This document shows, piece by piece, positions 1,868-41,320 of a stretch of 64,000 nt of DNA. The position numbers and the translations under genes were made by a program. The notes under the pieces were generated by a model, which made no database searches, was not told where the DNA came from, and worked only from the letters and a program-made list of their open reading frames with translations. The stretch's first letter is position 1. Each line of letters begins with the position of its first letter. The DNA lies in NCBI RefSeq assembly GCF_900155365.1, contig NZ_LT699743.1:250219-314218 (forward strand), in the 5' to 3' direction. The DNA comes from Collinsella bouchesdurhonensis. GTDB taxonomy: Bacteria > Actinomycetota > Coriobacteriia > Coriobacteriales > Coriobacteriaceae.

Positions 1868-3145
1868 ATGAACGAGATTACCTATGACGTCGTCGTTATC
1901 GGCGGTGGCCCCGCGGGCATGGCTGCAGCCCTCAAGGCGGCCGACGCCGGCGCTTCTACCGCAATCGTCGAACGCAATGCTCAACTCGGTGGCATCCTGC
2001 GCCAGTGCATTCACCCCGGCTTTGGCCTCACCTATTTCAAAGAAGAGCTCACCGGTCCCGAGTATGCCCAGCGTTTCATCGACCGTGTAGAAGACTCCCC
2101 CATCAAGGTCTACCTGGGCTCCATGGTGCTCTCTATCCACCATGACGACGAGTCTGGCACGTCAGACGTCGTCTTCATGAGCGAAACAGGCATGGTAACC
2201 CTCACTGCCCATGCGGTGGTCCTCGCCATGGGCTGCCGCGAGCGCACACGCTCCGAGATCAAAATCCCCGGCAGCCGTCCTGCCGGCGTCTTTACCGCGG
2301 GCCTCGCACAGCGCTACATCAACATCGAGAATCTCAAGCCCGGAAGCCGCTTTGTCATCCTGGGTTCTGGCGACATCGGCCTTATCATGGCGCGCCGCCT
2401 GGCGCTCGAGGGCTTTGAGGTCGAGGGCGTCTACGAGCTCATGCCCTATGCCAATGGCCTGCACCGCAATGTCAAAAACTGCCTCGAGGATTTTGGCATC
2501 CCCCTGCATCTCTCCACCACGGTCACCCGTGTGATTGGCAAAAACCGCGTTGAAGCGGTAGAGGTCTCGCAAGTCGACGAGCAGCTGCATCCCATCGAGG
2601 GAACGCAGCACACAATTCCCTGCGACGCGCTGCTGCTTTCTGTGGGCCTCATCCCCGAAAACGAGGTCTCAGCTGCGGCTGGCGTGAAGCTCAATCCACG
2701 CACGCGCGGCGCCGTTGTAGACGAATCGCTCGAAACCACCGTTCCGGGCATTTTCTCATGCGGCAACGTACTACATGTACATGATCTTGCCGACAACGTG
2801 ACGCGCGAGGCAGAGCGCGCGGGCGCCGCCGCAGCCGCATATGCCGCGGGCACGCTCGCTGCCACTAGCGAGAGTGTCCCCATCAACGCCGGAGGCATCG
2901 CCAGCTATGTGGTGCCGGCACGCCTCACGCGCGGGGAGGCCGCAAAACTGTTCTTCCGCGTTCGCCGCCCCGTCACGCGCGCGCACGTGCGCATCACCGT
3001 CGATGGTGCCACTGCACTCGAGGGCAAACCGCGCTCGTTTATCCCCAGCATCATGGAGTCCTTCCCGCTACCGGCAAAACTTGCTGCCGCGGCAAAAGAA
3101 TCCATCGAGATCAGCGTTATCGAGGAGGACGATGACCATGAGTAA
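1868..3145 (+). CDS. NAD(P)/FAD-dependent oxidoreductase of the glycerol-3-phosphate operon
   Basis: A 425-residue pyridine nucleotide-disulfide-type flavoprotein. It has an N-terminal FAD motif (VVIGGGPAGMAAA, residue ~10), the segment GGILRQCIHPGFGL near residue 40 that is usual in this subgroup, and a second nucleotide-binding motif VILGSGDIGL near residue 165. The family occurs between GlpA and a DUF1667 protein in many anaerobic Firmicutes and Coriobacteria, where it is thought to pass electrons from the GlpA flavin onward, replacing GlpB/GlpC. The ATG abuts the glpA stop, so translational coupling is likely. The 3' end overlaps the next gene by 8 bases. The family and context are clear; the electron partner is not. 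Confidence 0.85.
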   Translation: MNEITYDVVVIGGGPAGMAAALKAADAGASTAIVERNAQLGGILRQCIHPGFGLTYFKEELTGPEYAQRFIDRVEDSPIKVYLGSMVLSIHHDDESGTSDVVFMSETGMVTLTAHAVVLAMGCRERTRSEIKIPGSRPAGVFTAGLAQRYINIENLKPGSRFVILGSGDIGLIMARRLALEGFEVEGVYELMPYANGLHRNVKNCLEDFGIPLHLSTTVTRVIGKNRVEAVEVSQVDEQLHPIEGTQHTIPCDALLLSVGLIPENEVSAAAGVKLNPRTRGAVVDESLETTVPGIFSCGNVLHVHDLADNVTREAERAGAAAAAYAAGTLAATSESVPINAGGIASYVVPARLTRGEAAKLFFRVRRPVTRAHVRITVDGATALEGKPRSFIPSIMESFPLPAKLAAAAKESIEISVIEEDDDHE

Positions 3146-3515
3146 CTGCACGGTCAAAGACTTCTATTGCACGGTGTGCCCATCCGAATGCCCCCTTACG
3201 GTAACGCTCGACGAGACCGGCTCCGTAGTTTCCGTCGCCGGCAACAGCTGCCCACGCGGCGAGCGTTTTGGGCGCCAGGAGGCAACGTGTCCCATGCGCG
3301 TCCTCGCCTCGACCGTACGCCTTGAGGGGGCGCATACCGGCGAGCCCCTCATCCCCGTGCGCACGCGCGAAGCCATCCCCCTATCGCTGCAGGCACAAGC
3401 AATGGATGCCATTCGCAAGGCTCGCGTGACCGCTCCCGTCAAAATGGGCGATATCGTACTTGCAAACGTATGTGATACTGGAGTGGACGTGGTCGCCTCT
3501 TGCAGCGCCCGTTAA
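3138..3515 (+). CDS. DUF1667 cysteine-rich protein, third gene of the glp operon
   Basis: A 125-residue protein with a N-terminal cysteine cluster (FYCTVCPSECPL, then CPRGERFGRQEATCP) that could hold an Fe-S cluster or zinc. This fits the DUF1667 family, whose members almost always follow the GlpA-like and NAD/FAD oxidoreductase genes and are assumed to be an electron-transfer subunit. The ATG at 3138 is preceded by GAGGAGG with 9-base spacing and overlaps the end of the upstream gene; an ATG at 3132 is too close to that site. A strong terminator follows, ending the operon. The biochemical role is not established by the sequence. Confidence 0.8.
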   Translation: MSNCTVKDFYCTVCPSECPLTVTLDETGSVVSVAGNSCPRGERFGRQEATCPMRVLASTVRLEGAHTGEPLIPVRTREAIPLSLQAQAMDAIRKARVTAPVKMGDIVLANVCDTGVDVVASCSAR

Positions 3516-3587
3516 TTCAAGATCTAGCCATCTGGCATGCGAGGGTCCCTTTTCACCCTTCTCTTCTCCCCTCGCCCCAGGTGCATG

Positions 3588-3632
3588 CGGACGCGCCCGC
3601 GGCTCCATACCCGGGCGCGTCCGTTTTCTTTT
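3588..3632 (+). terminator. terminator of the glp operon
   Basis: 12-bp GC-rich arms (CGGACGCGCCCG / CGGGCGCGTCCG) with a 12-nt loop, followed by TTTTCTTTT. It lies 72 bases after the DUF1667 stop. Confidence 0.88.
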
Positions 3633-3778
3633 GCTTGTACACCCTCATTGACCGTCTTCCTTGCAAGAACGCGGGCGGACGCCCCCTCTCCTCGATTGCC
3701 CAGGTTGTGGATACCTGCGCGGCACAGCGGCTTCAAGCGAAAAGACGTCTACAGCAAAGAATATCGCCATGCACAACA

Positions 3779-3918
3779 CAAACTTCCTGATTTCAGTACC
3801 AGTATTCGAATTTCTCAAGTAGAGCGCCTTTTGAAAGCACTATTTCCTGCTGTTTTCCTTCCAAATAGATGTCTCTACTTGAAAAAGTGCCGGACTGCTA
3901 CTGAAATCAGGAACTTTG
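3779..3918. repeat. 140-bp long inverted repeat (possible MITE or dispersed palindrome)
   Basis: The ends 3784-3798 and 3899-3913 are perfect 15-bp inverted copies (TTCCTGATTTCAGTA), extending to about 25 bp with two mismatches. Inside them a second pair, TCAAGTAGAG near 3815-3824 and its complement near 3873-3882, is also inverted, with a ~48-bp centre. The rest of the gap from 3640 to 4108 shows no gene I can support. No transposase or clear target duplication is visible. It may be a non-autonomous mobile element or a structured repeat. Confidence 0.6.
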
Positions 3919-4108
3919 CTATCAACCTAACCTTTTGCGAACGGAAAGATCCCCAAAGGACCAAGGTCCCGCCACAAGACCCCTCCGCACACACACGATT
4001 CCGAGCCCCGTTCCCGAAAAACACGCTCGAAACAGTCAAAAAATGACCGTTCACCTTATGTTATGCACCTTTTGGAAACTCCTGCCGCCCAAACGGAACG
4101 CAAACGGG

Positions 4109-4138
4109 TTGCCACGCGCACGGCCACGATGCTACGAT
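4109..4138 (+). promoter_or_regulatory. predicted promoter of the riboflavin ECF operon
   Basis: A -35 TTGCCA (4109-4114) and a -10 TACGAT (4133-4138) are separated by 18 bases, placing the transcript start just before the FMN riboswitch. Prediction by eye only. Confidence 0.5.
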
Positions 4139-4148
4139 GCAGTCGCTG

Positions 4149-4332
4149 TTTCAGGGCGGGGTGAAATTCCCCACTGGCGGTAAATCGGCCGGCGCAATCC
4201 CGCGTCGCGTCCCCGACAACGGTTGCCGGGTGTACATCCGATAAGCCCGCGAGCCTGGCTGGCATTGGGTTGCCTGCAGGCCGATCCGGTGAGAATCCGG
4301 TGCCAACGGTTAGAGTCCGGATGGAAGAGGCA
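4149..4332 (+). promoter_or_regulatory. FMN riboswitch (RFN element)
   Basis: All signature blocks of the RFN element are present in order: TTCAGGGCGGGGTGAAATTC at the start, CCCCACTGGCGGTAAAT, AAGCCCGCGAGC in the middle, GATCCGGTGAGAATCCGGTG and GCCAACGGTTAGAGTCCGGA near the 3' end, closing with GAAGAGGC. The element is known to bind flavin mononucleotide and to shut down expression by termination or by hiding the ribosome site. It ends 9 bases before the ribU ATG, so it covers the ribU initiation region; control of translation start is the simplest reading, since I see no separate terminator between it and the gene. Confidence 0.97.
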
Positions 4333-4341
4333 GGTGATCTC

Positions 4342-4929
4342 ATGTCTGAGCAGTCTACGCATATCCAATTTCAAAACACCAACAGGTGGGAGACTAAACA
4401 ATTGGTCACCATGGCACTCATGTGCGCCATCGGTGCGATCTTCATGTATGTGCAAATCCCCATTCTTCCCTCGGCTCCATTTTTGAGCTATGACCCCTCA
4501 CTGGTGCCGGCCATGGTCTGCGGCTTTGCCTACGGTCCCGTATCGGGCCTTACCGTTGGCGTGCTCGCCGTGGTCATCCACGCGCTCACCACGGGCGACT
4601 GGGTCGGTGGCCTCATGAACATCGTGGCGGCGATCTTCTTTATCCTGCCTGCCGCGCTCGCCTACAAGAAGCTCCACAGCTTCCGCGGCGCCGTGACCGG
4701 TCTTATCCTGGGCATCATCTTTGCCACAGCAGCATCCATCGTCTCCAACCTCACCATCGGCGTGTGGTTCTGGTATCCCTCGATGGACTTCATCATGCCG
4801 CTCATCGGCCCGGCGATCATCCCCTTCAACCTCATTAAGACCGCGCTCAACTCCGTGCTGACGCTTGCCGTGTACAAGGCAATCTCGAACCTTATCACGC
4901 CCGAAAAGCAGCAGGTTAAGGGCAAGTAA
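4342..4929 (+). CDS. ribU: riboflavin ECF transporter S component RibU
   Basis: A 195-residue integral membrane protein with five to six hydrophobic segments from residue ~25 on. The family features are an N-terminal segment ending in MYVQIPILPSAPFLSYDPS (the loop that recognises flavin in RibU) and a glycine-rich VCGFAYGPVSGL helix. It binds riboflavin outside the cell and delivers it through an ECF module. The start at 4342 lies right after the FMN riboswitch, which confirms the substrate. The stop overlaps the ATG of the ATPase gene (TAATG), so the S component and its energising module are co-translated. Confidence 0.93.
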   Translation: MSEQSTHIQFQNTNRWETKQLVTMALMCAIGAIFMYVQIPILPSAPFLSYDPSLVPAMVCGFAYGPVSGLTVGVLAVVIHALTTGDWVGGLMNIVAAIFFILPAALAYKKLHSFRGAVTGLILGIIFATAASIVSNLTIGVWFWYPSMDFIMPLIGPAIIPFNLIKTALNSVLTLAVYKAISNLITPEKQQVKGK

Positions 4930-6737
4930 TGATCTCGTGCAAAGACATTTCGTTTTCCTACGACGGCAAGGTCCCCACGCTCTCGAATATCACGCTCGAC
5001 ATTGCTGACGGCGAATTTCTGTGCATCCTCGGCGGAAACGGCTCCGGCAAGTCAACCCTCGCCAAGCACTTAAACGCCTTACTCGTGCCCGATAGCGGCA
5101 GCGTCGAGGTCGACGGCCTGAACACCTCCGACCCGCAGCTGGTCTACGACGTACGCTCGCGCGTAGGCATGGTGTTTCAAAACCCCGACGATCAACTGGT
5201 CGCCACGCTCGTGGAAAACGATATTGCCTTTGGACCAGAGAACCTGGGCGTCCCCACAAACGAACTTTCGCAGCGCGTGGCGGACGCCCTTGCAAGCGTG
5301 GGCCTCATGGGCTTTGACCAGCACGAGACCCACGCTCTCTCGGGCGGACAAAAGCAACGCGTAGCCATTGCCGGCGCCCTTGCCATGCACCCCGAAGTGC
5401 TTATTTTGGACGAGGCGTCCTCGATGCTCGATCCGCGCGGCCGCCATGGTCTACTCAAGGTGTGCCAGGAGCTCAATCATGCGGGCATGACCATCGTGAT
5501 GATCACCCATTTTATGGAGGAAGCGGCCCTTGCCGATCGCGTCGTGGTCCTCGATCGCGGACGTATCGCCTTGGAAGGCACGCCCGAAGAAATCCTCACC
5601 CGCGCCGACGAGCTGCATTCCCTCAATCTCGAGGAGCCCTTTGCTTGCCAGCTCGCGCTGGAGCTCAAAAGACGCGGACTGGATATCAGGCCCCATGTTG
5701 ACGAAGAATCGGTTGTTACCGAGATTCGCGCCGCCATGGGACGTCATATCGAAACGTCCTTATGCGAGGAAATCGCGGCGAGCGATGAGGCGCCGCAAAG
5801 CAGTGACGCTGCCCCGCTCATCCAGTTTGAGCACGTGTATTACAGCTACGAAAAGTCCACCCGCGAGCGAGCGCGACGCCGCAAGAAGAACGCACCGGCA
5901 GCACAAGCCGCCGAATGGGGCAACGATCCCAACGCCGTTTGGGCCCTGCGCGACATCTCCTTTGATGTGCACGAAGGCGAAATGCTCGGCATCGCGGGCC
6001 ACACCGGATCGGGCAAATCGACCATCATCCAGCACATGAACGGCCTTGTTCATCCCACGCAGGGGCGCGTGCTGCTCCAAGGTGTCAGCATGGCGGACAA
6101 GCACGTCAACGAGACGGCAAAGACCACTGTCGGCATGGTATTCCAATACCCGGAACATCAGCTCTTTGCCAACACCGTTTTTGAAGACGTTGCCTTTGGA
6201 CCTCAAAACCTGGGTTTATCCGCCAATGAGGTCACCGAGCGCGTGCTCGAGGCCCTCCGACTCGTAGGCCTTGATGCCGATGAAGTTGCGCAGAAAAGCC
6301 CCTTTGAACTCTCTGGCGGTCAGCAGCGCCGCTGCGCTTTTGCCGGCGTGCTCGCCATGCGCCCCCGTGTACTCGTGCTCGACGAGCCTGTTGCCGGCCT
6401 CGACCCTGCCGCTCGTACAGAGTTTCTGCAGCTCATCGATGACCTTCATGCCCGCGGGCTCACCATCGTCATGGTGTCGCACAGCATGGAGGATATCGCC
6501 ACCCACTGTGACCGCGTCCTCATTATGAACAAGGGCAGCATCGTCTCGCTTGGCACGCCGCGCGAGGTCTTTGCAAGCGACCGCGACCTCAAATCCATCG
6601 GCTTGGGACTGCCCGCCCCACAGCATATGGCGTGCCTTCTGCGTGACGCTGGCATCCCCTTGCCCCGTCGCCGCCTCTATTCCACCAAGACGCTTGTCGA
6701 AAGCATCGTTGCTCTTGCCGCCGGAGGTGTTGCGTAA
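4929..6737 (+). CDS. ECF transporter ATPase, two ABC domains fused in one chain
   Basis: A 602-residue protein holding two complete ABC ATPase domains, equivalent to EcfA1 and EcfA2 joined. Domain 1 has Walker A GGNGSGKST (~residue 35), Q-loop FQNPDDQLVA, signature LSGGQKQR and Walker B LILDEASSMLDP. Domain 2, from about residue 290, has GHTGSGKST, FQYPEHQLFANTVFEDVAFG, LSGGQQRRCAFAG and LVLDEPVAGLDP. The Q-loop style 'NPDDQ/YPEHQ' is typical of ECF ATPases. A charged linker (residues ~320-345, RERARRRKKN) joins the halves. It overlaps ribU by one base and ecfT by one base. The protein powers vitamin import at the cytoplasmic face of the membrane. Confidence 0.92.
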   Translation: MISCKDISFSYDGKVPTLSNITLDIADGEFLCILGGNGSGKSTLAKHLNALLVPDSGSVEVDGLNTSDPQLVYDVRSRVGMVFQNPDDQLVATLVENDIAFGPENLGVPTNELSQRVADALASVGLMGFDQHETHALSGGQKQRVAIAGALAMHPEVLILDEASSMLDPRGRHGLLKVCQELNHAGMTIVMITHFMEEAALADRVVVLDRGRIALEGTPEEILTRADELHSLNLEEPFACQLALELKRRGLDIRPHVDEESVVTEIRAAMGRHIETSLCEEIAASDEAPQSSDAAPLIQFEHVYYSYEKSTRERARRRKKNAPAAQAAEWGNDPNAVWALRDISFDVHEGEMLGIAGHTGSGKSTIIQHMNGLVHPTQGRVLLQGVSMADKHVNETAKTTVGMVFQYPEHQLFANTVFEDVAFGPQNLGLSANEVTERVLEALRLVGLDADEVAQKSPFELSGGQQRRCAFAGVLAMRPRVLVLDEPVAGLDPAARTEFLQLIDDLHARGLTIVMVSHSMEDIATHCDRVLIMNKGSIVSLGTPREVFASDRDLKSIGLGLPAPQHMACLLRDAGIPLPRRRLYSTKTLVESIVALAAGGVA

Positions 6738-14354: not shown

Positions 14355-14431
14355 GTCCCCATCGTCTAGCGGCCAAGGACGCCACCCTTTCAAGGTGGAT
14401 ATCGCGGGTTCGAATCCCGCTGGGGGCACCA
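14355..14431 (+). tRNA. tRNA-Glu (anticodon TTC)
   Basis: The acceptor stem GTCCCCA/TGGGGGC, anticodon arm CCACC-CTTTCAA-GGTGG with anticodon TTC, and T-arm GCGGGTTCGAATCCCGC are all present, and CCA is encoded at 14429-14431. A terminator follows 13 bases later. Confidence 0.96.
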
Positions 14432-14443
14432 TTTGAATTGAGA

Positions 14444-14475
14444 AGCCCGTTACCCTCCCGGTAGCGGGCTTTTTG
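14444..14475 (+). terminator. terminator of tRNA-Glu
   Basis: GCCCGTTACC and GGTAGCGGGC pair with one mismatch across a 5-nt loop and are followed by TTTTT. Confidence 0.85.
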
Positions 14476-14485
14476 CCGCCCGTGG

Positions 14486-14503
14486 GCCGGGATTCGAACC
14501 CGG
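14486..14503 (-). other. isolated tRNA T-arm-like sequence
   Basis: On the minus strand CCGGGTTCGAATCCCGG reads as a perfect T-stem and T-loop. No acceptor, D- or anticodon arm can be fitted around it, so it is not a whole tRNA. It may be a relic of a tRNA 3' end, 55 bases from tRNA-Glu. Confidence 0.45.
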
Positions 14504-14693
14504 CAGGGCCGGCCCGTTTTCACTTGAGACTTGCGCCGCAATGAAATGTTGCAATACCGTCGCAAAACTCGGCACGAATCGCTTTTCACCCAATCGGCTC
14601 GCACCGCCGTCCACCTTTTGCCCCCATACAAAGCCACCTCTCCAAAAGCCCCATGATAAAATCGGAGCAACGAACGCACGAGGAGGAACCGCT

Positions 14694-16994
14694 ATGGCCG
14701 ACGCTCTATCCTGCATGTTTCACGCCCTGCGCAACCATCTTTCGCGCACGCTCGCACTCGCTACGCTCTGCACCCTGGGGCTCGTCCTTGCCACAACGCC
14801 CGCTTTTGCCGATGACGTTATAACCACGATTGACATCTCTGGCAAAGGCTCCAACACCACCGTTACCATCGACAAGCCGGGCTCTTACCGCCTTTACGGC
14901 TCCAGCAGCACAACATGGGTTCACGTCAAAACGGGAAACGTCACTCTCTACCTTGCCGACGGCCTCAACATCAATCCCGGCATCTCGGCCAATACGGGCA
15001 AGACATGCCCTTCGATAAAGATTGAAAACACGGGCGGAACCGTCAACATCATCAGCGAGGCAAACGCCCAGGCAAAACTGTCGAGCTATCTTACGAGCCC
15101 CGCGATCCAAAAGGAGGGAACGCAAACCAAGCTTGTGTTCTCCACGGCCGATTCCGAACACCCGGGAACCATCAGCGCAACAGCAGCTTCTGGCAGCATG
15201 TCCGCCGGCATTGGCACTAACTACAAGCTCGTCTCCAATGGGGTCACCGGAAACATCGTCTTCAAAAGCGGCAAAGTAATCGCTCGAGGCGGAACCGACG
15301 CTGCTGGCATCGGCGGCGGTTCCGGCGGCAGTGTCGACGGGATCACGATTGAAGGCACCGCAAATATCGAAGCATATGGCAGCGCGGGCGGCGCGGGAAT
15401 CGGATGCGGCTTTCACGGGACCATGCGAAACATCACCATCAGGGGCGGCAACGTCACGGCAAAGGGCGGCGATAGCGGTGCCGGAATCGGATGCGGTCGC
15501 GACGAGCAGGGCCTCACCCATGGCGCTATCACAATCGAGGGTGGAACCGTCAATGCCACGGGTGGAGGCTTTGGCGCAGGCATCGGTGGGTCGTTCCGCT
15601 CAAAGGTCAACAGCATTGTGATCAAAGGCGGAACCGTCAAGGCAATCGCCGGTGAATACGCCTGCGGCATCGGCAGTGGCGGCGGAACGGCCAACGAACA
15701 CTGGTGCAAGTCGATTACCATATCCGGCGGAAACGTCACTGCTGTTGGCGGTGGAGCGAGCTCGTCTCACGCTGCCGCCATCGGCAATGAATGCAGGGCG
15801 ACCGGACGCCAAACCATCACCATCACGGGCGGTATCGTCCGCGCCTACACGACCAGCGACCACGCCCACGCCATCGGCGGAGGCGGCACAAACGGCCCCG
15901 GGTCGTATCCGCATGTGGCGGTCGATATCAGCGGCGGAACCATCATTGCCAAAGGGGGTAGCAAAGCGAGCGCCTTCGGCTCCAATGGCAACGGATACAA
16001 CACCCAAAAAGGCAAATACTTTGCAGCAACCATCACGGGAGGTTCCATCCTCTTTGCCGCGGGCGACTCCGTAACCAACCTGGGCACGTTTCAGGTAGAC
16101 CCCACCGATGCCGCCCACAATAAGGTTTCACCCACAGCGGCAACCATGGGCACGCTGAAAAACAAACAGCTCGACCTTGGTAAATCCCAGGCAGTCGTCA
16201 AAGGTCTGAGCAGCAACTATGGCATGAACGATGTCACCGCGATAAGTCTTGATGACGAGTTTGGCAACGGCAAGAAAGAGGTGCTCTTTTGTCCCTGGCT
16301 GCCCACGGGGACAACGCTTGTACGCGTCGATGCAAGCGTGCAGTCACAAAGCGTTCCCTATACGGACTCCGCCGTGTCCGGAAAGACCGGAACGCTGTAT
16401 CCAGCATGCAAGCTCACCCTCTCCCCGTATGGAACGGGAACAGACGGTCACGCCCTTGCCCTGTTCGGACAAGGTGTCGAGGCAATCCAGCCCGCCATCG
16501 TAACAGGGCAAGTTGTCGAGCGATACACGGCCTCACCCAACCCCTATAGCGAGCAGGTGATGGATGCCAGCGGGAAGCTCTCCCCAAACGTCACGGTAAA
16601 CGACGCTCGCCTGACCGATGCGCAGGGCAACTGGATCTACAGCGGCGGCACCGATGGCTCGGGATCCTACGGCTCGTATACGCTGTATGCGCAGATGCGT
16701 CCGGTATCCTACACAGTCCATTTCGACGCCAACGCGCCTGCAGGCTCAAGCGCCGCGGCATCGGGTGCCGCGCCCGATGACATAGTCGCCAAATACGGCA
16801 AAACCTACAAAATTGGCGAGGGCTCTACGCTCTTTATTCCGGGATACACGCTCAGCGGTTGGAACACCGCTGCCGATGGGAGCGGCACTGTCTTTGCCCC
16901 CGGAGAGGCCGCGAGCAATCTTTCCGACACCGATGGCGCAACCGTCACGCTCTACGCCCAGTGGACACGCAAACCCTACACGATTCATTTCTAA
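14694..16994 (+). CDS. LPXTG surface protein, N-terminal part ending at an in-frame stop
   Basis: 766 residues, with a Sec signal peptide (hydrophobic LALATLCTLGLVLATTPAFA, cleavage near residue 39). Residues ~185-440 hold about seven glycine-rich repeats of the type 'ITIEGGTVNATGGGFGAGIGG', expected to form a beta-helix. From about residue 670 Listeria-Bacteroides (InlB B-type) repeats begin: 'YTVHFDAN...GYTLSGWNTAADGSGT...LYAQW'. The frame stops at TAA (16992-16994) in the middle of the next repeat, and the same frame continues cleanly in 17019-18494 with two to three more repeats and an LPXTG anchor. AGGAGG precedes the ATG. As read, this product would be secreted and not anchored. Reading error, recent nonsense mutation or read-through are all possible. 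Confidence 0.85.
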   Translation: MADALSCMFHALRNHLSRTLALATLCTLGLVLATTPAFADDVITTIDISGKGSNTTVTIDKPGSYRLYGSSSTTWVHVKTGNVTLYLADGLNINPGISANTGKTCPSIKIENTGGTVNIISEANAQAKLSSYLTSPAIQKEGTQTKLVFSTADSEHPGTISATAASGSMSAGIGTNYKLVSNGVTGNIVFKSGKVIARGGTDAAGIGGGSGGSVDGITIEGTANIEAYGSAGGAGIGCGFHGTMRNITIRGGNVTAKGGDSGAGIGCGRDEQGLTHGAITIEGGTVNATGGGFGAGIGGSFRSKVNSIVIKGGTVKAIAGEYACGIGSGGGTANEHWCKSITISGGNVTAVGGGASSSHAAAIGNECRATGRQTITITGGIVRAYTTSDHAHAIGGGGTNGPGSYPHVAVDISGGTIIAKGGSKASAFGSNGNGYNTQKGKYFAATITGGSILFAAGDSVTNLGTFQVDPTDAAHNKVSPTAATMGTLKNKQLDLGKSQAVVKGLSSNYGMNDVTAISLDDEFGNGKKEVLFCPWLPTGTTLVRVDASVQSQSVPYTDSAVSGKTGTLYPACKLTLSPYGTGTDGHALALFGQGVEAIQPAIVTGQVVERYTASPNPYSEQVMDASGKLSPNVTVNDARLTDAQGNWIYSGGTDGSGSYGSYTLYAQMRPVSYTVHFDANAPAGSSAAASGAAPDDIVAKYGKTYKIGEGSTLFIPGYTLSGWNTAADGSGTVFAPGEAASNLSDTDGATVTLYAQWTRKPYTIHF

Positions 16995-17018
16995 GGCGGA
17001 GAGGGCGCTACCGGCCAT

Positions 17019-18494
17019 ATGGATGACGCGCTGTTCGACATCGACGTCGCAGGTCAGCTTCCCGCCAACCGCTTTAACAAGCCGGGATATACCTTTGCCG
17101 GCTGGGCACCCTCCGCATCTGTGGGCGGCGCGATCTCTGACGGTGCATGGGTCACGAATCTCTGTGCGAAAGACGTCGACGGCAATATCCTCCTCGACGC
17201 GAACGGCTCGCCCATGGGTCTAACCCTCACAGCTCGCTGGATTGACAACAGCGTCAGCGCGCATGACGTTGCCGTCACCGTCGGAATCGACAACAGTGCC
17301 GCAAAAGGCTTTGCGTCGAGGCTCACGCTCGTTGACGGAGAGACCTCCTTTGCCCCCTTCGAGGAGAAAACCGACGCATCGGGAGCAACATACTATGCGC
17401 TGAAGCGCGAAGGCGCGCTTCCCGCTGGCACGTACATGCTCATGCTCGACGGCAAAGACACGGGCAAAACCGTCGAAGTAGGCGATGACGCCGATGTCGC
17501 GTCCCTCAACCTCTACTCGCTTGCTACCAGCTGCGATAGCAAGCTTGCAGGAGTCGATGTACAGCCAAGCTGGCCCATCGCAGCGGGTACCGATACGGTG
17601 TACTTGGAGGAATCGTATGTGACTCTGGCGGCGCGTGGAACTGCGCGCGGCTACGCATTCGATCAATGGACCTCGCCCGACGGCACCGCGCACTTTGCCG
17701 AGAGCTCGTCCGAAACATCCAATCCGACCACGGTCTTTGTAGATAGGGCGCTCTCGATGTATGCCACCTCGCGCCCCATCGACTATTGCATTCGCTTTGA
17801 CCCCAATGCAGACGACGCCACGGGTACCATGGAGGAACAGACACTCGCCTACGACACCGAAGCAGACCTCTTTACCTGTGATTTTGCACGCACGGGCTAC
17901 GTCTTTGCCGGCTGGAATACAAAGCCGGACGGCAGCGGGGACACCTTTGCAGATGGCGCTACTGTCAAAAATCTCATGGATAGCGAGGGCACTTTGACGC
18001 TCTTCGCCCAGTGGAAACCCATCGCCTATTTCGTGCATTTCGATGGCAATCTTGCCGATGGTCCCGCCATGCAATCCGTCGAAGCAACCTACGGGCAAGC
18101 CTTCTACCTGCCCGAAAACACGTTTGTCTTCCACAACGACGGACTAGCAGATTCGACATTTATCGGTTGGAACACGCAACGCGACGGATCGGGCGATACC
18201 TATGAAGATGCACAGCAGGTCATAAATCTCTGCTCTGAACAGGGCGCCTCGATCACGCTCTACGCGCAGTGGCGCGATCCCGAGCCCACACCGACTCCTG
18301 CCCCTGAGCCCAAACCCAGCCCCGGCACGGACCAGAAAGTGCCCCAGCAATCAGACACCAAGAAGTCCAAAACCCGTCGCGGCGACAATTTGCCCGGGAC
18401 CGGCGATGGCTTGCCCCTGTGGATAGCGATAGGTGTCCTTGGCGTCGCCGCAATCGCCCTTGGAGTCTTCTGTATGCGAAGGTGCGCTCGGTAA
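17019..18494 (+). pseudogene. C-terminal part of the broken LPXTG surface protein
   Basis: Continues the frame of 14694-16994 after a single TAA; the residues between the stop and this ATG (GGEGATGH) also read sensibly, so the true gene is 14694-18494 (1266 residues counting the stop position). It holds further B-type repeats ('GYTFAGWAP', 'GYVFAGWNTKPDGSGDTF', 'FIGWNTQRDGSGDTYEDA'), a proline-rich wall spacer, and a sortase signal LPGTG followed by a hydrophobic helix and MRRCAR. The ATG at 17019 has no good ribosome site (GGAGAGGG is too far away), so independent translation is doubtful and the part would lack a signal peptide. Confidence 0.8.
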
Positions 18495-28635: not shown

Positions 28636-31600
28636 TCACAGCATGACAGGGGCCTTGGACCTTCCAATGATCTGCTCATAGGCGATGCGCGTCTTTTCCT
28701 CGGGAAGCGCATGCACTTCATGCTCCAGATAGTGCAGGTGGCTGTTATAGAGCTCGACCACTTCACGCCGACGTCCGCATAAGTCAAAGACGGCCATGGC
28801 GCGTCTAATCACGTCTTCGCGTGTCGCTTCTTGTCTCAAGGCCGCCTCGACAAGCCAAGTAGCCGATGCCGTGTTCCCAGCCTCGACAGACAAATCAATC
28901 CCGCGAATCATGCAGTCGATAAACTTGGACTGATACATGCGACGCAGTTGAACAAAGAACTGCGTATTGCCAATGCTCGGGATAAAAAGCGGACCCGCAT
29001 ATACCTCCTCGAGCTTTAAACAATCGTCGATAACTTCCTGTGCGCTCCTACCCGTCTTGCGCAGCAAGACCTCACGCGCCAACGCGTCAAAACGACGAAT
29101 ATCAGACGTAACATAATCACCGTTGAAGGATATGGCATCGGCCTGCGTTACCACATACTGAGGACCGTCCTTCCGCTGACTCAATGCACTCCGCAGGGAG
29201 GAGAGCGCAGTATAGAGACTCTTGCGCGCATGGGCATAATCCATCTCCGGCCACATCTCCTCAGAAATCACCCGACGGTCCACAAAGGTATCGATCGAAA
29301 GCACGAGGCGCGCAGCAAGCGCACTTGCCTTCTTGCGCTTCCAAACTTCATCGGTCAGGGTATGGCCGTTGCGCAACACGTGAAAGCCGCCAAAGAGGTT
29401 GATAGTTACCTGCCCCACATCGGGAGTCCCCAAATAGAGCATCGTCTCATATGACTCCACCTCCTTTGCCTCATCGATGACGCCTCGATACTGCGAGGGG
29501 TGCCGGAGCGGAACTAGACGGCGCGCCGAATCGGATCTATCCCCCAGCACTGACATAGCAAGACAAGCACGCGTTGCAAAAGAGGAATCCAGTAATACGG
29601 ACCGATGCATCGAAAACCATGCCGAAAGCTCCGCATCAAAACGTGCGGCCGAAAGATGCAACGCCGTAGACCACGCCCAAGCCGGATCTTTGGCCTGCGT
29701 CGCAAGATCTAAAAGATCTGCCTGTTCGCGAACGGTTATCATCGAGGCATCCCTTAGCTGAGCGCTTTGCACCAGCAAATGAGCCCAACCGCGCAGAAAG
29801 ATATTCGACTTGTCTGCGAGCTTCTCCACTTGCTGCCCACGAAACTGCGCATTCATCACCTGCCCCAACGTCAATGCCTGCCAGCCTTCCGCCGCAAGGC
29901 AAAACAGCTGAGTTGGCAAATCGGATTGCCGAACCGCCATCGTATTGGCATCGATAAATGCCCGCTCGTCGGCAATCGGCTCGAGACGCATCAGGTGTCC
30001 CACCGCCTGTGCCATACGCACTCGCGCGGCACAAGGCAAAAGCCTGCGCTCGAGAAGCACATCGCGCAAGCCGCTTAAGCGAGACATCGCCTCGCTGAGG
30101 TCTTCCGGGCGGCCGCAAAAGGCTTGCTTGAGCACCTCCACCGTAGATTCGAGAATCTCCAGCAAATCGACCCCGTTGCATCTTCTGTTTTGCGGCAAAG
30201 GCTCTGGAGCACTATAGGCAGCGATGTTTCCGTCGCCTGCCATAAGACGGTCATAGGCGGCAATACAAGCCTCCAACCGATCAGCATGCGACGACCTTGC
30301 GCCTCTGCAAAAATGCTCCGAAAGCGTCGGAAGCGATATTCCCGCGCACGAATCCCACAGAGCCACAAACGCACAGGCACATGCCCACTCCGTTGGGTCG
30401 ACATCGCGTTCCATATCGTAGGCGCGCTTCCTCAGCTCGAGTGCCGCAGCGCGAGCAAGACGAAGGTCACCAAGCGTCAACGCCGCAAGACATGCCGCAA
30501 GCAGAGCACCGGCTTCAAGCGGCTCCTCTGTAGAGGCTTCATGCCGGCCCAGCAATCGGCTAATAAACAAGCCATGGCCACTCAGAACAAATCCGGTAGG
30601 GCGCATCGCAAGCAAGGCGATGGCGTCATTATCCTCCAGCACGTTCTCGCACAGCTCAACCGCATCGTCAAAGCGGGAGGCCTTAACGAGCATTCGACCG
30701 GCATGGCTAACGATTTGACTCGAAAGCCGAGCGACCATTTGCTGAAGCGAGCGCTTGATCTGTGCGCCCAACCCCAAGCACTTAAACTCGCCGGTATTGA
30801 CCGCAAATCCAAACACAGGCCAATCGCGCGAAAGCTGCAACAACACGTTCGGCTTCACGCGCACCCCGCACGCCTCAAGATCGGCCATCGTTCCCGATCC
30901 CATCGCCAACATAAAGCAAACGATCCTGAGCAAGCCATCGCGCGCCTGCTGCAAGTTGTTGAGAATCGCTTGATAAATCCCAAGGATACCCGCGTTAAGA
31001 GCAGATCCATCTGCCTCTTGTGAGCTGATACTTTGCAGCATGGCAATAAGAGCTGGGACACCTTGTGTCAGATGATAGACATCAAGCGAGGCCGAGATTG
31101 AGTATAAGCGCGCCCACTGAGCGTATTCTCGCGGCTGGACCAGCAAGGATCGAGCGGGAATGAGCGAGCTCTCCCCCACCGCCTTGACGAATTCATGGTT
31201 GGTGGGAAGGCAGGAGACAACGATCTCGAAGCCCTGATCGCGCAAATCAAATAGCGTATCAACCACACGTTGCAGCCCCGCCTTTCCAAAGCGAGGCATG
31301 TTGTCCACAATCACAACGGGCGAAGCGGTTGGCGCGATATCGCGCTGCAGACGTCGCAAACGCTCCCCAAGCTCAGCGGGACGCATTCCCTGTGCATCGA
31401 TAAGGCCCACGTCGCCGCGCGTCATATCTTCTTTAATACTGTCCGCGTATTGAAGAAGGAGTGCGGTTTTACCAAACCCCGCCGGTGCGCTTACTACGGC
31501 CATGCCGCCATCGCGGCATTTGCGCACAAGATCTTGCACCAATCTGTCTCTGCGCGCAGAAAATCCAGCTGGCACTCGATAGAACTCTCTCGTATCCGAT

Positions 31601-31641
31601 TCGCCCTTTAAGTCCCCCACATACGTTTTGCCAACATTCAC
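28636..31641 (-). CDS. large MalT/SARP-like transcriptional regulator with ATPase domain
   Basis: A protein of about 1001 residues. Near residue 70 it has a Walker A motif (SAPAGFGKTALLLQYA) in a STAND/MalT-type NTPase domain, with VVIVDNMP as a likely Walker B. The middle is a long helical-repeat region. From about residue 790 comes a winged-helix (VTINLFGGFHVLRNG, then WKRKKASALAARLVL and EEMWPEMDYAHARKSLY) followed by a BTAD-like helical domain, as in the SARP family; MalT itself ends in a LuxR domain instead. Such proteins switch on genes after binding a small ligand and ATP. A GTG at 31641 with GGGGG 5 bases before it is the best start; the frame is open to an ATG at 31710 with no ribosome site. 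The target genes are not evident. Confidence 0.78.
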   Translation of the reverse strand: MNVGKTYVGDLKGESDTREFYRVPAGFSARRDRLVQDLVRKCRDGGMAVVSAPAGFGKTALLLQYADSIKEDMTRGDVGLIDAQGMRPAELGERLRRLQRDIAPTASPVVIVDNMPRFGKAGLQRVVDTLFDLRDQGFEIVVSCLPTNHEFVKAVGESSLIPARSLLVQPREYAQWARLYSISASLDVYHLTQGVPALIAMLQSISSQEADGSALNAGILGIYQAILNNLQQARDGLLRIVCFMLAMGSGTMADLEACGVRVKPNVLLQLSRDWPVFGFAVNTGEFKCLGLGAQIKRSLQQMVARLSSQIVSHAGRMLVKASRFDDAVELCENVLEDNDAIALLAMRPTGFVLSGHGLFISRLLGRHEASTEEPLEAGALLAACLAALTLGDLRLARAAALELRKRAYDMERDVDPTEWACACAFVALWDSCAGISLPTLSEHFCRGARSSHADRLEACIAAYDRLMAGDGNIAAYSAPEPLPQNRRCNGVDLLEILESTVEVLKQAFCGRPEDLSEAMSRLSGLRDVLLERRLLPCAARVRMAQAVGHLMRLEPIADERAFIDANTMAVRQSDLPTQLFCLAAEGWQALTLGQVMNAQFRGQQVEKLADKSNIFLRGWAHLLVQSAQLRDASMITVREQADLLDLATQAKDPAWAWSTALHLSAARFDAELSAWFSMHRSVLLDSSFATRACLAMSVLGDRSDSARRLVPLRHPSQYRGVIDEAKEVESYETMLYLGTPDVGQVTINLFGGFHVLRNGHTLTDEVWKRKKASALAARLVLSIDTFVDRRVISEEMWPEMDYAHARKSLYTALSSLRSALSQRKDGPQYVVTQADAISFNGDYVTSDIRRFDALAREVLLRKTGRSAQEVIDDCLKLEEVYAGPLFIPSIGNTQFFVQLRRMYQSKFIDCMIRGIDLSVEAGNTASATWLVEAALRQEATREDVIRRAMAVFDLCGRRREVVELYNSHLHYLEHEVHALPEEKTRIAYEQIIGRSKAPVML

Positions 31642-31710
31642 TGCATCCCCCACTCTCGCGCAATGTGAGCCTTGTCGATTCAAGATACGAGCTGGTTGCC
31701 AGAGGGGCAT

Positions 31711-36292: not shown

Positions 36293-39200
36293 TTAGCGCC
36301 GATGTCGTCCGTAGACGATGAAGGCGATTCCCGCGATGGCGAGTGCTGCTGCGATGACCATGGCCACCGCAGCGGTGTCACCAGTCTGGGGCAGGAAGCT
36401 TCGAGTGACGATGCCGCCAGATTTACCTGGCTTGCCGGGTCCCTTGGGCGTGGTCGGCGGTATGGGCGTATCCGGTTTTACCGGGGGCTTCTCGGAAGTC
36501 TTCTGCTCGGTGAAGGTATTGCAGAACTCAATCGCCTCGACAGCCTCCCCATTCTTGGTGTAGCTGAGGGACGCCTCAAGCTGACCTTCTCCGTTGTCAA
36601 CGACGGTAACCGTGATCGTATAGACGCTCTCGTCGTAGGTCATTCCCTCTTCGGTACCCTTGACCTCGGCAATCCTGAAGGTGTAGACACCGGGTGCCTC
36701 GAACGTCAGCTCATCGAATGATACGTTGCCATACGCATCGTTCTTGGCGGTTTGACTTATGTCTGCCGTATCGCCCTCACTCGTAAGCGTGAAAGCAAAC
36801 TCGCCATCTCTGAGGTCCCGCCCGACAAGCGACTTAATCGCTGTAATCTTGACGCTTGCAGGAGCAGCACGATAGACGTTGGTGAAAGTCGCCGTTTGAG
36901 CGTCTTCGAGTGCATGCTTCACCGAAAGCTTGCCCTCTCCGTTGTCGCTAACCGTGGTCACCACAATATAGGAGGCACCGCTAAACGTCATGCCGCGATC
37001 GTGCTTTCCCGCGTCGTGTTCGCGGAGAGTATATGTATGCGTGCCAGGCCCTTTGTACGTAATGGGACTCAGCGTGATGCCGCCGTCCTTGGCATTGGTG
37101 CCCGTCGCCACCACGGTATCGCCCTCGACGAGTTCGAACGTGAACTCTTTGGCGACAAGGTTGCGGCCCTCAAGCTTCTTGGTAACCGTGAGCTGGTCGG
37201 TCACGCTCGAGCTAACCGACTCTACGCTATAGCTGTTGGTGAACGTAAAGGCCGGACCCTCTGCGGGGTCACGCGTGACCGTCAGACGCCCTGCGCCGTC
37301 GTCAGTCACGGTAAAAGAAACCGTGCGCGTGCTCGCGGGGTCGTTGGCGACGCCGGGGGCGCTTCCGCTCTCGCGGATGGTATAGACAAAGGTATGGGAG
37401 CGGGGTTTCGTTGCCGCAGGTGCTGCGGGATCGGCGATCTTATGCGCCACGGTCTCGATTTCGGGCATGCCGAGCAACATGGGCTCATCGGATTCAATGA
37501 TGGTATCGCCAACGGGACCGGACTTCTCGACAGGAACCGGCGCCACGTCCCCGCTGCCCTCATCGGTAGCAGGAGCGTCGCTCACTGAGGCTTCGTCCGA
37601 TGCCGCAGGTCCCTCGAGCTCGAACGTCGTATCGTCCCCTGCGGGCGCGCTTTTTGCAGTAATGCCGTCGGCTCCGTCAAGCGCCTGGGCATTTTCATCA
37701 CCGGTCACTGCCGCGTCAAGCTCCAAAGCGTCCTGATCCGCCGTGCCATTGTTACCAAGGGCACGGTTGAGGTCCGCGAGGGTGAAGGTGATGTCACCGA
37801 AATCGATGTTGCCGTCGGCATCGTTCGTTGCGGTCGCGCACTCGGGCATGGGCGCTCCGTCCTCCTTGGGCGTCACGGTAAAGGTGAACTTGCCCTTGAT
37901 GCTCGCCGGCGTGAGACCATCGGTCGAGGTCAGCAACTTGGTGCCGTTAAGCCGCATGGTCACTGGATCTCCCGTGGAGTACACATTGCGGAATACGCAT
38001 TTGCCCTCACCCTCAGTCTGTACTGTCGCCTTAAGACTGCCGTCGCCATTGTCAACAATGTGCACGATCACGGTGAAGCTCGCAAGCTCAGCACTCACGC
38101 CCTTGGGCAGGCTGGACTCATCCTCATATGCCACGTACTCAACGGTCCACTCAAAGTTGCCGTCTTTGTTCGTACTCTTGGTCGCGTGGCCGCTTTTGAC
38201 CAGGTCTGCCAGCATGGCGGTGTCATAGGAAAAGGCCCCAAAGCCAACGGTGCCGTCCTTGTTGTTGCGTACCGTGCGGAGGGGAGTAGTGGTGCCGGCA
38301 TAGGCCAGATGGAACGTGAACTCGCCGTCAGTAAGCGGGCGTCCCTTCATCTCCTTGACGGCGATGATAGTTGCAGTCGATCCGCCCTGGTTATCGGTTG
38401 AGGCGGAGTAGCTGTTGGTAAACGGGACCTTTGCCTTCTCGGACGTCTCGCCTGTGGCGTAGGTGTAGGTCTTGCTGCCCATGGCGCCACCGGTAACGGT
38501 CGTGGTAGCCGTGAGCTTGCCCGCGCTATCGTCTGCCACGGCAATGCTCACCGTGCGCTTGGCGGTGTCGTAGGTATAGCCTAGGGCGCCGTCATTTTTC
38601 TCGCTGACGGTATAGCTATAGGTCTTGCCGGCATCTGCCTGCGTAAACGTAACGTCACGCCCGCCGAGAACATCGATGGATACCGTCGCGCCGTCTGCGG
38701 CAGCTGGCGTCACGAACGTGTTGTCGCCCTCCGACAGGCCAAGCGCCTTGGCGGAGGCGGCGTCGGTGGGTGCCACGGTAAACGTGAACTGTCCCTCTGC
38801 CATGCTGTGGCCGTTGAGCGTCTTGGTGATAACAAGGCCGCCGGCGGCAGAATAGCTTAACTCGGAGGTATATGTGTTGGTAAATGTGGGGTTCTCGACC
38901 TTAGAGACAACTGCAGAAAGCACGCCGGCCTTATCGACGGTGACCACCACGGTGATCCTGGCGCGGTTGGTACTGTAAGCAATACCGCTTGCGCCTCCAT
39001 CCCTCTCAAAGACCTCGTAGACATAGGTACCGGCCTTGGTGTAGGTGATGGTGCCAAAGTCGATAGCGGCGTGACCCTGTCCGTCTGCGTCGCTCTTAGT
39101 CAAGGTAACGCTTGTCTTAGGCACACTCTGGGCATCGCGGTCACCGGACGCGAGACCAATCTCGAACGTGAACTTGTCGGCATCGGTCCACGCGCGACCC

Positions 39201-41320
39201 TCGAGAACCTTGGTCAGGCCGAATCTTGCCTTGGTATCGAGCGCGGCGGGCGTGGTGCCTAAACCAAACGTAATTTTGCCGTTGTTGCCCAGATGGGCGT
39301 TGACCTGCGTTGCGCGGGCCAGGCTCGAGCTGTCATTCCACTCGGGATTGAGTACATCGCGGGCGGTGCCGGTGGCGTTACCACCCACGGCGGTCTTTTC
39401 GGTGTGCAGCTGGTCGATGAAGAGCAGGCGCGCGGTGCCCTTGGCAAGCGCATAGCCGGTACCGTCGGAGGTAAGGGCCCCCTCAAAGCTCGAGATCATG
39501 CTGCCGCCGATGGCAACCGCGGTGTAGGCATCTTTTGGCTTTCCGTCATCACCACGGATAACGTACTCGTCCTTGTAGTAGTACGTCGCGGCGTCTTCGA
39601 GGCTCCCGGTTGCACGCTGGGTGCACGCCTCATCAGTGTAGAGAGGCGTCACCTTCTGGAGATAGTAGTAGCTGTTGGCAGAAGACGGACGGAAGCTGGC
39701 GTACGTATCGCCCAAGTCTCCACCGGACCACTTGTTAGCCAAGAAGCTCACCGTGTTGGCGTCGTGATCCCCGTTGGCATCGATATAGTCAGTGAGCCCG
39801 GTGACGTTTGCGGGCGTGAAAAGGTTGTCGCGCACGACGCCCTTGACGCTCGAAGCATACGTCACGCGCAGAGGCTTGACGGCATCGATGTCCGCCACCT
39901 CAAAGGTGCCCTTTGCCTTATCGATCTTGTACTCGCGCAGCGGGATGAGTGATGCCGGCACCTTGACGGCAACCTTATCGCCCTGGCGCGGGTTCGCTTC
40001 GCCCGCGCGCTCGACGGTAACGACCAGGTCCTTTGCCGTGCCTTCAAACGTATAGGTGTCAGTGTTGCCCTCGGTGGACATGCCGGCGACCGCGAAGGAC
40101 GTGCCGTTAATCTGGGCGCTGTGGAAGCCGTCAACCTGCATGAAGTCGCCCAGCGTGTCGGTAAACGTGATGTAGCCGGTCTCATGTGGGCCGAACCCGT
40201 CCTCGATGTGAGTGGGATAGCCCGCCCCCGTGGTGATAGAGCTTGAGATGCCGCTGAAGACCTTCTCGAGCTCGGAGGTCGTGGCCGCAGACTGGTAGTA
40301 GTTGGAGTTCTGCGCACGCAAGCCAAGCGATCCTGCAGCATATGATGTAGCGAGCGGGTAGTTACTCGACACCGCGTGCATGAATCTGTTCTCTTTGCTC
40401 GTGCCGCTCTTCGCGGGATCGTCTGTGGGCGCGGCCCCGTTAAAGATGCCAATGGTATAGATGGTGGCACCGGAATCCTTCATCGCCTTGGCAGACGTAA
40501 CAGCGCTCGTGGCGACGTCACTTTCGAATCCGTTGCTGCTAGTAGGAGAACCGTCAGTGAAGAAGACAACGACTTTCTTTGCGTCCGCGCGTCCATTGCT
40601 GCTCGAGAGCTGCGATTGCGCAAGCTGAAGGCCAAGGTCGGCACGCGTGGCGCCCGCGGGGCTAATTGAGTCAACGGTGTCCTTGAGGCTTGTCGCCCCA
40701 GCCGTATCGCAGGGCGTGAGTTCCTTCATGACCTGCGAGTAATTGTAAGTATAGCCGTTGCTGCGGTACGTGCCGTTGCCCACGCTGCTGGACTTTTTGC
40801 CCGCGAACTTGACGATGGCAACCTTGTGCTGCCTCTCGGCGGGAAGCCCCTCGTTCTGCTCGACAATCGTGTCGATGAAGTCACCGGCAGCACCCTTGAG
40901 CGCCGTGATGCGCTTAGTTCTGTCGTGGCCGCCCATCGGATCGTCCATCGATCCGGAGGCGTCGAGTACCAGTACAATGTCGAGAGGCTTGACCTCAGTC
41001 GTGGTGGTATCGGAGGTAGATGACATGACCGAGAGCGTGGTTAGGAAGTCGGACTTCTCGTCATCCGCCACTCGAACGGTCTTGTCGGTCCAGATACGCC
41101 CGACGCTCTGCGTCGAGATGTGCGACTCGTTGCCGCCACCCGCCGCCCAATGGCGCCAGCGATCGCGGGTATCGGGATCGACCTTTGCGGTCGCCTGCAC
41201 CCCTCCCCCTTCGCTTGCAGGAGAAGCGTTTGAGTCTGGGGCAGCGCCCATCGCCAGTGCCGGCAGAGCCAGCAGCAAGACGAGCGCCATCATGGCAAAT
41301 CCCCTCATCCTCTTGCTCAT
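36293..41320 (-). CDS. giant LPXTG adhesin with VWA domain and FctA/Spy0128-type repeats
   Basis: A 1675-residue cell-wall protein. A signal peptide covers residues 1-25. A von Willebrand A domain (~115-395) has the metal site DASGS at residues 120-124. A beta-rich region follows (~400-690), then about six repeats of the Spy0128/FctA pilin type, each with a 'K.L.GR.L..GEFTF' start and a 'Y.Y...E' segment (for example KTLNGHSMAEGQFTF, KEMKGRPLTDGEFTF, KSLVGRDLRDGEFAF); such domains usually carry internal isopeptide bonds. The fourth repeat contains a long acidic insert (37430-37720). The end has a proline-rich spacer, sorting signal LPQTG, a membrane helix and RHRR. AAAGGGGG precedes the ATG. 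A role in host adhesion is inferred; no sortase gene is in the window. Confidence 0.88.
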   Translation of the reverse strand: MSKRMRGFAMMALVLLLALPALAMGAAPDSNASPASEGGGVQATAKVDPDTRDRWRHWAAGGGNESHISTQSVGRIWTDKTVRVADDEKSDFLTTLSVMSSTSDTTTTEVKPLDIVLVLDASGSMDDPMGGHDRTKRITALKGAAGDFIDTIVEQNEGLPAERQHKVAIVKFAGKKSSSVGNGTYRSNGYTYNYSQVMKELTPCDTAGATSLKDTVDSISPAGATRADLGLQLAQSQLSSSNGRADAKKVVVFFTDGSPTSSNGFESDVATSAVTSAKAMKDSGATIYTIGIFNGAAPTDDPAKSGTSKENRFMHAVSSNYPLATSYAAGSLGLRAQNSNYYQSAATTSELEKVFSGISSSITTGAGYPTHIEDGFGPHETGYITFTDTLGDFMQVDGFHSAQINGTSFAVAGMSTEGNTDTYTFEGTAKDLVVTVERAGEANPRQGDKVAVKVPASLIPLREYKIDKAKGTFEVADIDAVKPLRVTYASSVKGVVRDNLFTPANVTGLTDYIDANGDHDANTVSFLANKWSGGDLGDTYASFRPSSANSYYYLQKVTPLYTDEACTQRATGSLEDAATYYYKDEYVIRGDDGKPKDAYTAVAIGGSMISSFEGALTSDGTGYALAKGTARLLFIDQLHTEKTAVGGNATGTARDVLNPEWNDSSSLARATQVNAHLGNNGKITFGLGTTPAALDTKARFGLTKVLEGRAWTDADKFTFEIGLASGDRDAQSVPKTSVTLTKSDADGQGHAAIDFGTITYTKAGTYVYEVFERDGGASGIAYSTNRARITVVVTVDKAGVLSAVVSKVENPTFTNTYTSELSYSAAGGLVITKTLNGHSMAEGQFTFTVAPTDAASAKALGLSEGDNTFVTPAAADGATVSIDVLGGRDVTFTQADAGKTYSYTVSEKNDGALGYTYDTAKRTVSIAVADDSAGKLTATTTVTGGAMGSKTYTYATGETSEKAKVPFTNSYSASTDNQGGSTATIIAVKEMKGRPLTDGEFTFHLAYAGTTTPLRTVRNNKDGTVGFGAFSYDTAMLADLVKSGHATKSTNKDGNFEWTVEYVAYEDESSLPKGVSAELASFTVIVHIVDNGDGSLKATVQTEGEGKCVFRNVYSTGDPVTMRLNGTKLLTSTDGLTPASIKGKFTFTVTPKEDGAPMPECATATNDADGNIDFGDITFTLADLNRALGNNGTADQDALELDAAVTGDENAQALDGADGITAKSAPAGDDTTFELEGPAASDEASVSDAPATDEGSGDVAPVPVEKSGPVGDTIIESDEPMLLGMPEIETVAHKIADPAAPAATKPRSHTFVYTIRESGSAPGVANDPASTRTVSFTVTDDGAGRLTVTRDPAEGPAFTFTNSYSVESVSSSVTDQLTVTKKLEGRNLVAKEFTFELVEGDTVVATGTNAKDGGITLSPITYKGPGTHTYTLREHDAGKHDRGMTFSGASYIVVTTVSDNGEGKLSVKHALEDAQTATFTNVYRAAPASVKITAIKSLVGRDLRDGEFAFTLTSEGDTADISQTAKNDAYGNVSFDELTFEAPGVYTFRIAEVKGTEEGMTYDESVYTITVTVVDNGEGQLEASLSYTKNGEAVEAIEFCNTFTEQKTSEKPPVKPDTPIPPTTPKGPGKPGKSGGIVTRSFLPQTGDTAAVAMVIAAALAIAGIAFIVYGRHRR

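Follow-up and report, generated by a model that had tools for sequence, protein, structure and literature searches.

A single in-frame stop splitting an LPXTG surface-protein gene of Collinsella bouchesdurhonensis is probably a recent nonsense mutation

A gene for a putative cell-wall-anchored surface protein in the gut bacterium Collinsella bouchesdurhonensis carries one stop codon between its signal peptide and its anchor. We asked whether this stop is a mutation that has cost the protein its anchor, an error in the assembly, or a feature that the organism uses. The gene lies in a stretch of 64,000 nucleotides of contig NZ_LT699743.1 (positions 250,219 to 314,218, forward strand), here called the window, and all coordinates refer to it. 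A first-pass annotation of the window had described a single in-frame stop splitting a 1266-residue LPXTG protein, with no base inserted or lost at the split. Both points were confirmed by translation. The frame 14694-18494 (+) comprises 1,267 positions with one internal stop, a TAA at 16992-16994 (residue 767), and the normal end stop; its 1,266 codons are otherwise open and there is no change of frame across them. The other two forward frames of the same interval contain 25 and 30 stops, showing that the openness past the TAA is not due to chance. The synonymous-codon preference of the window's genes was kept on both sides of the stop, at +0.22 bits/codon before the TAA and +0.17 after it; shifted frames scored between -0.23 and -0.38. 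Automatic annotation would report either two genes or a pseudogene here, although one frame holds both the signal peptide and the anchor. The features of the gene are collected in Table 1.

Table 1. Features of the split surface-protein gene (window coordinates)
Feature	Position	Strand	Basis
Ribosome-binding site AGGAGG of the surface-protein gene	14681..14686	+	Sequence reading, 7 nt before ATG 14694
Open upstream part, 766 codons, ending at the premature TAA; contains the signal peptide, the beta-helix repeats and the first B-repeat	14694..16994	+	Translation; Beta_helix_3 E=1.6e-17
Predicted signal peptide, ending ...ATTPAFA and followed by DD	14694..14810	+	Translation; cleavage site by eye
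B-repeat 1 (Flg_new / List_Bact_rpt)	16710..16961	+	Profile match G000:C15:266928-267179
B-repeat 2, TAA near its N-terminal end	16977..17150	+	Flg_new profile match running across the stop, '1 TAA' inside
Downstream part, 499 codons in the same frame, open as far as the natural stop; contains B-repeats, a Flg_new_2-like segment and the anchor	16995..18494	+	Translation, profile matches, codon preference
Two further B-repeats, 17784-18008 and 18027-18269	17784..18269	+	Profile matches
LPGTG sorting signal, hydrophobic stretch, RRCAR tail	18390..18494	+	Translation; downstream of the premature stop

Translation and Pfam/NCBIfam profiles bore out the earlier reading of a signal peptide and beta-helix before the stop, with B-repeats and LPGTG after it. 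The N-terminal half matched Beta_helix_3 (PF18889) over the cut-off. The downstream part matched B-repeats of the Listeria-Bacteroides (InlB-B) type (PF09479, E=1.2e-18; TIGR02543, E=6e-14), for which the part upstream of the stop gave a weak match. The gene is a member of the Beta-helix / List_Bact_rpt LPXTG surface protein family of Coriobacteriia, with Beta_helix_3 repeats, B-repeats and an LPXTG signal all found in it. A sortase gene is present in the genome (G000:C14:59355-59822), and close to it another, intact LPXTG B-repeat protein is encoded. As a Flg_new profile spans the TAA, the stop falls within the first strand of a B-repeat, the conserved N-terminal one, and not at a domain border.

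Full-length relatives lacking the stop were found in Collinsella tanakaei and, outside the genus, elsewhere in the class. The C. tanakaei relative (G019) has an open frame of 2,035 codons and is 30% identical over residues 9-1194 (E about 1e-80); for this genome and for G218, G264 and G352, alignments covered residues 9-1194 or 45-1194 with E-values of 1e-79 to 1e-103. Long open frames aligning through the stop were also seen in the order's other genera and families (G218, G264, G352, G254, G324). These proteins (G019 C. tanakaei, G218, G264, G352 Ca. Aveggerthella, G254, G324) have the same layout as the window protein: a signal peptide comes first, then Beta_helix_3-type repeats, then B-repeats, and an attachment module closes the C-terminus. 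Across more than 1,100 residues they are 30-36% identical to it, but unlike the window gene they are open at the stop column. In seven aligned relatives this column holds R, T, A, E, S, E and V, a sense codon in every case, and D is found at this place in the other three repeats of the gene itself. None of these residues is aromatic, so the earlier reading that related repeats carry an aromatic residue here was not upheld. The C-termini of the relatives differ, being LPXTG-like in several. In the C. tanakaei protein (L061 4661-10765) S-layer homology (SLH) domains take the place of the LPXTG signal, indicating that the attachment module has been swapped within the family.

A base-calling or assembly error, with the gene intact in the organism, would need one base difference, the rest of the gene being intact and the family open elsewhere. 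The assembly is a draft of 15 contigs, and a miscalled base would look identical to a real mutation. On the other hand, the assembly is 99.77% complete with low contamination, and none of the window's 35 other main frames is broken, which excludes errors of the indel type though not substitutions. At the DNA level, similarity between the repeats is only about 60-85%, making a mix-up of repeats unlikely, and of all single-base changes in the gene, as in its downstream 499 codons, only about 3% create a stop. Nonsense pseudogenes are common in bacterial genomes and substitution errors are few in a near-complete assembly; for this reason we prefer a real mutation and regard an error as unlikely.

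In-frame stops are rare in this repeat type: among 147 Flg_new matches in 43 genomes of the genus, repeat 2 of the window gene was the only one to contain a stop. In G218 a second copy of the family (G218:C37:79500-87500, L160, at about 2400-5050) is split by a frame change together with an in-frame TAG and TAA. These are different lesions, so family members have also been lost elsewhere, independently. Downstream of the window's TAA no second lesion was found in 499 codons, which limits neutral change since the end of selection to about 0.06 per site (upper 95% bound) and suggests that the loss is recent. Identity to relatives was 28-40% before the TAA and 30-35% after it, that is, not clearly lower after the stop. 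Both the clean downstream part and this identity fit a recent event, and they also fit a base error.

We also considered programmed or regulated read-through of the TAA, by which most of the protein would be shed and a minor part anchored. The open downstream frame with its kept codon preference would agree with this, but the remaining evidence stood against it. Of the bacterial stop codons, UAA is reported to be read through least (PMC5289835). TAA is in ordinary use as the end stop of 14 of the window's 35 genes, and the base after the premature TAA is G, so that it is not UAAU, the strongest tetranucleotide; nothing marks the stop as leaky. No ochre-reading tRNA (UUA anticodon) was present among the genome's 47 tRNA matches (ARAGORN), the 120 nt of RNA after the stop folded no better than shuffles (z=-0.11), and none of the seven aligned relatives had a stop at this column. 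Recoding was rejected on the ordinary usage of TAA, the absent suppressor tRNA and the unremarkable fold, and we consider programmed read-through highly improbable. The same holds for a more specific version, in which the TAA would be kept on purpose so that low-level read-through anchors a few molecules while most are shed as a soluble beta-helix decoy; this appears far-fetched.

Two other candidate mechanisms were rejected. The idea that ATG 17019 is the designed start of a second gene, used by reinitiation, was discarded on three grounds: the purine-rich GGCGGAGAGG upstream encodes the Gly-rich turn of the repeat, the ATG is the repeat's conserved Met (GxM in most relatives), and the product would have no signal peptide. 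This ATG is merely the first Met past the stop and not an evolved start. Phase variation by repeats was discarded as well, the intragenic copies being 60-86% alike with none near-identical, and no simple-sequence tract being present at the stop.

The TAA split is real as sequence and ordinary in kind. Judged from the sequence and its relatives, an accessory gene for an LPXTG surface protein has probably suffered a recent nonsense mutation, most likely an ordinary loss of the anchor and not a regulated switch. Ribosomes would stop at codon 767. The signal peptide would still export a mature piece of about 73 kDa, made up of the beta-helix and one B-repeat, which without the LPGTG anchor would be released or degraded instead of being fixed to the wall. 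The part beyond the TAA would hardly yield useful amounts of protein, since translation restarting at 17019 would give a product with no signal peptide; this part is, however, too little decayed to prove an absence of translation. The first-pass annotation had left four options side by side, namely a secreted short form, read-through, recent loss and error. Recent loss, with a secreted unanchored short form as its product, is the best supported of these, while programmed read-through found no support.

A parallel is offered by the premature-stop (PMSC) alleles of inlA in Listeria monocytogenes, in which, as in the window gene, a nonsense codon lies ahead of the anchor of an LPXTG protein with B-repeats. 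In inlA Mutation Type 12 (576 aa) the truncation falls inside the B-repeat region (PMC5131979). An unanchored, secreted protein is the expected result in both genes. The N-terminal parts are not homologous, being leucine-rich repeats in InlA and a beta-helix in the window protein, and the window protein, seen here in the sequence of one genome, is not a known invasin. The parallel bears on whether the truncated secreted form might itself be useful, the loss of the anchor being kept by selection. Signal peptide, entire beta-helix and one full B-repeat survive the cut, and in Listeria an InlA that is truncated and secreted has been documented (Nightingale 2005, as cited in PMC5131979). Against this, inlA truncation alleles are linked to reduced invasion and not to a gain (PMC5131979), and the undecayed downstream part is what any recent event would give; selection for the short form is thus doubtful, and much less probable than a plain loss. 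If the nonsense mutation is confirmed in reads, it would add another commensal surface adhesin that varies by on/off mutation, like inlA of Listeria.

The gene sits between a tRNA-Glu gene and a type III glutamine synthetase gene (glnN, opposite strand). The relatives checked, with glutamine synthetases of up to 94% identity, showed nothing in the tRNA-Glu to glnN interval that matched either half of the gene, so it is accessory at this site. Searches of genome_contigs and viral_contigs gave no near-identical copy. The comparison genomes are one per species, near copies may have been left out of them, and they include no sister strain with the gene. The direction of change within the species is accordingly read from relatives in other species, not from sister strains, and should be taken as provisional. 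A site-specific island at tRNA-Glu was rejected, as no second copy of the tRNA end was found in the window. Several relatives have one or two extra partial copies of the stretch downstream of tRNA-Glu (terminator region; 14355-14508 and L101-L108) before glnN, and in G007 a transposase-like frame lies between tRNA-Glu and glnN. The interval looks like a variable insertion site.

Two further large proteins were observed in the window. The first (36293-41320, minus strand; 1,675 residues) has a VWA domain, six Spy0128-like isopeptide (FctA) domains and an LPXTG anchor and is a probable pilus adhesin. The second (28636-31710, minus strand; 1,024 residues) weakly matches STAND-type NTPases, carries a BTAD domain at its C-terminus and is probably a large regulator.
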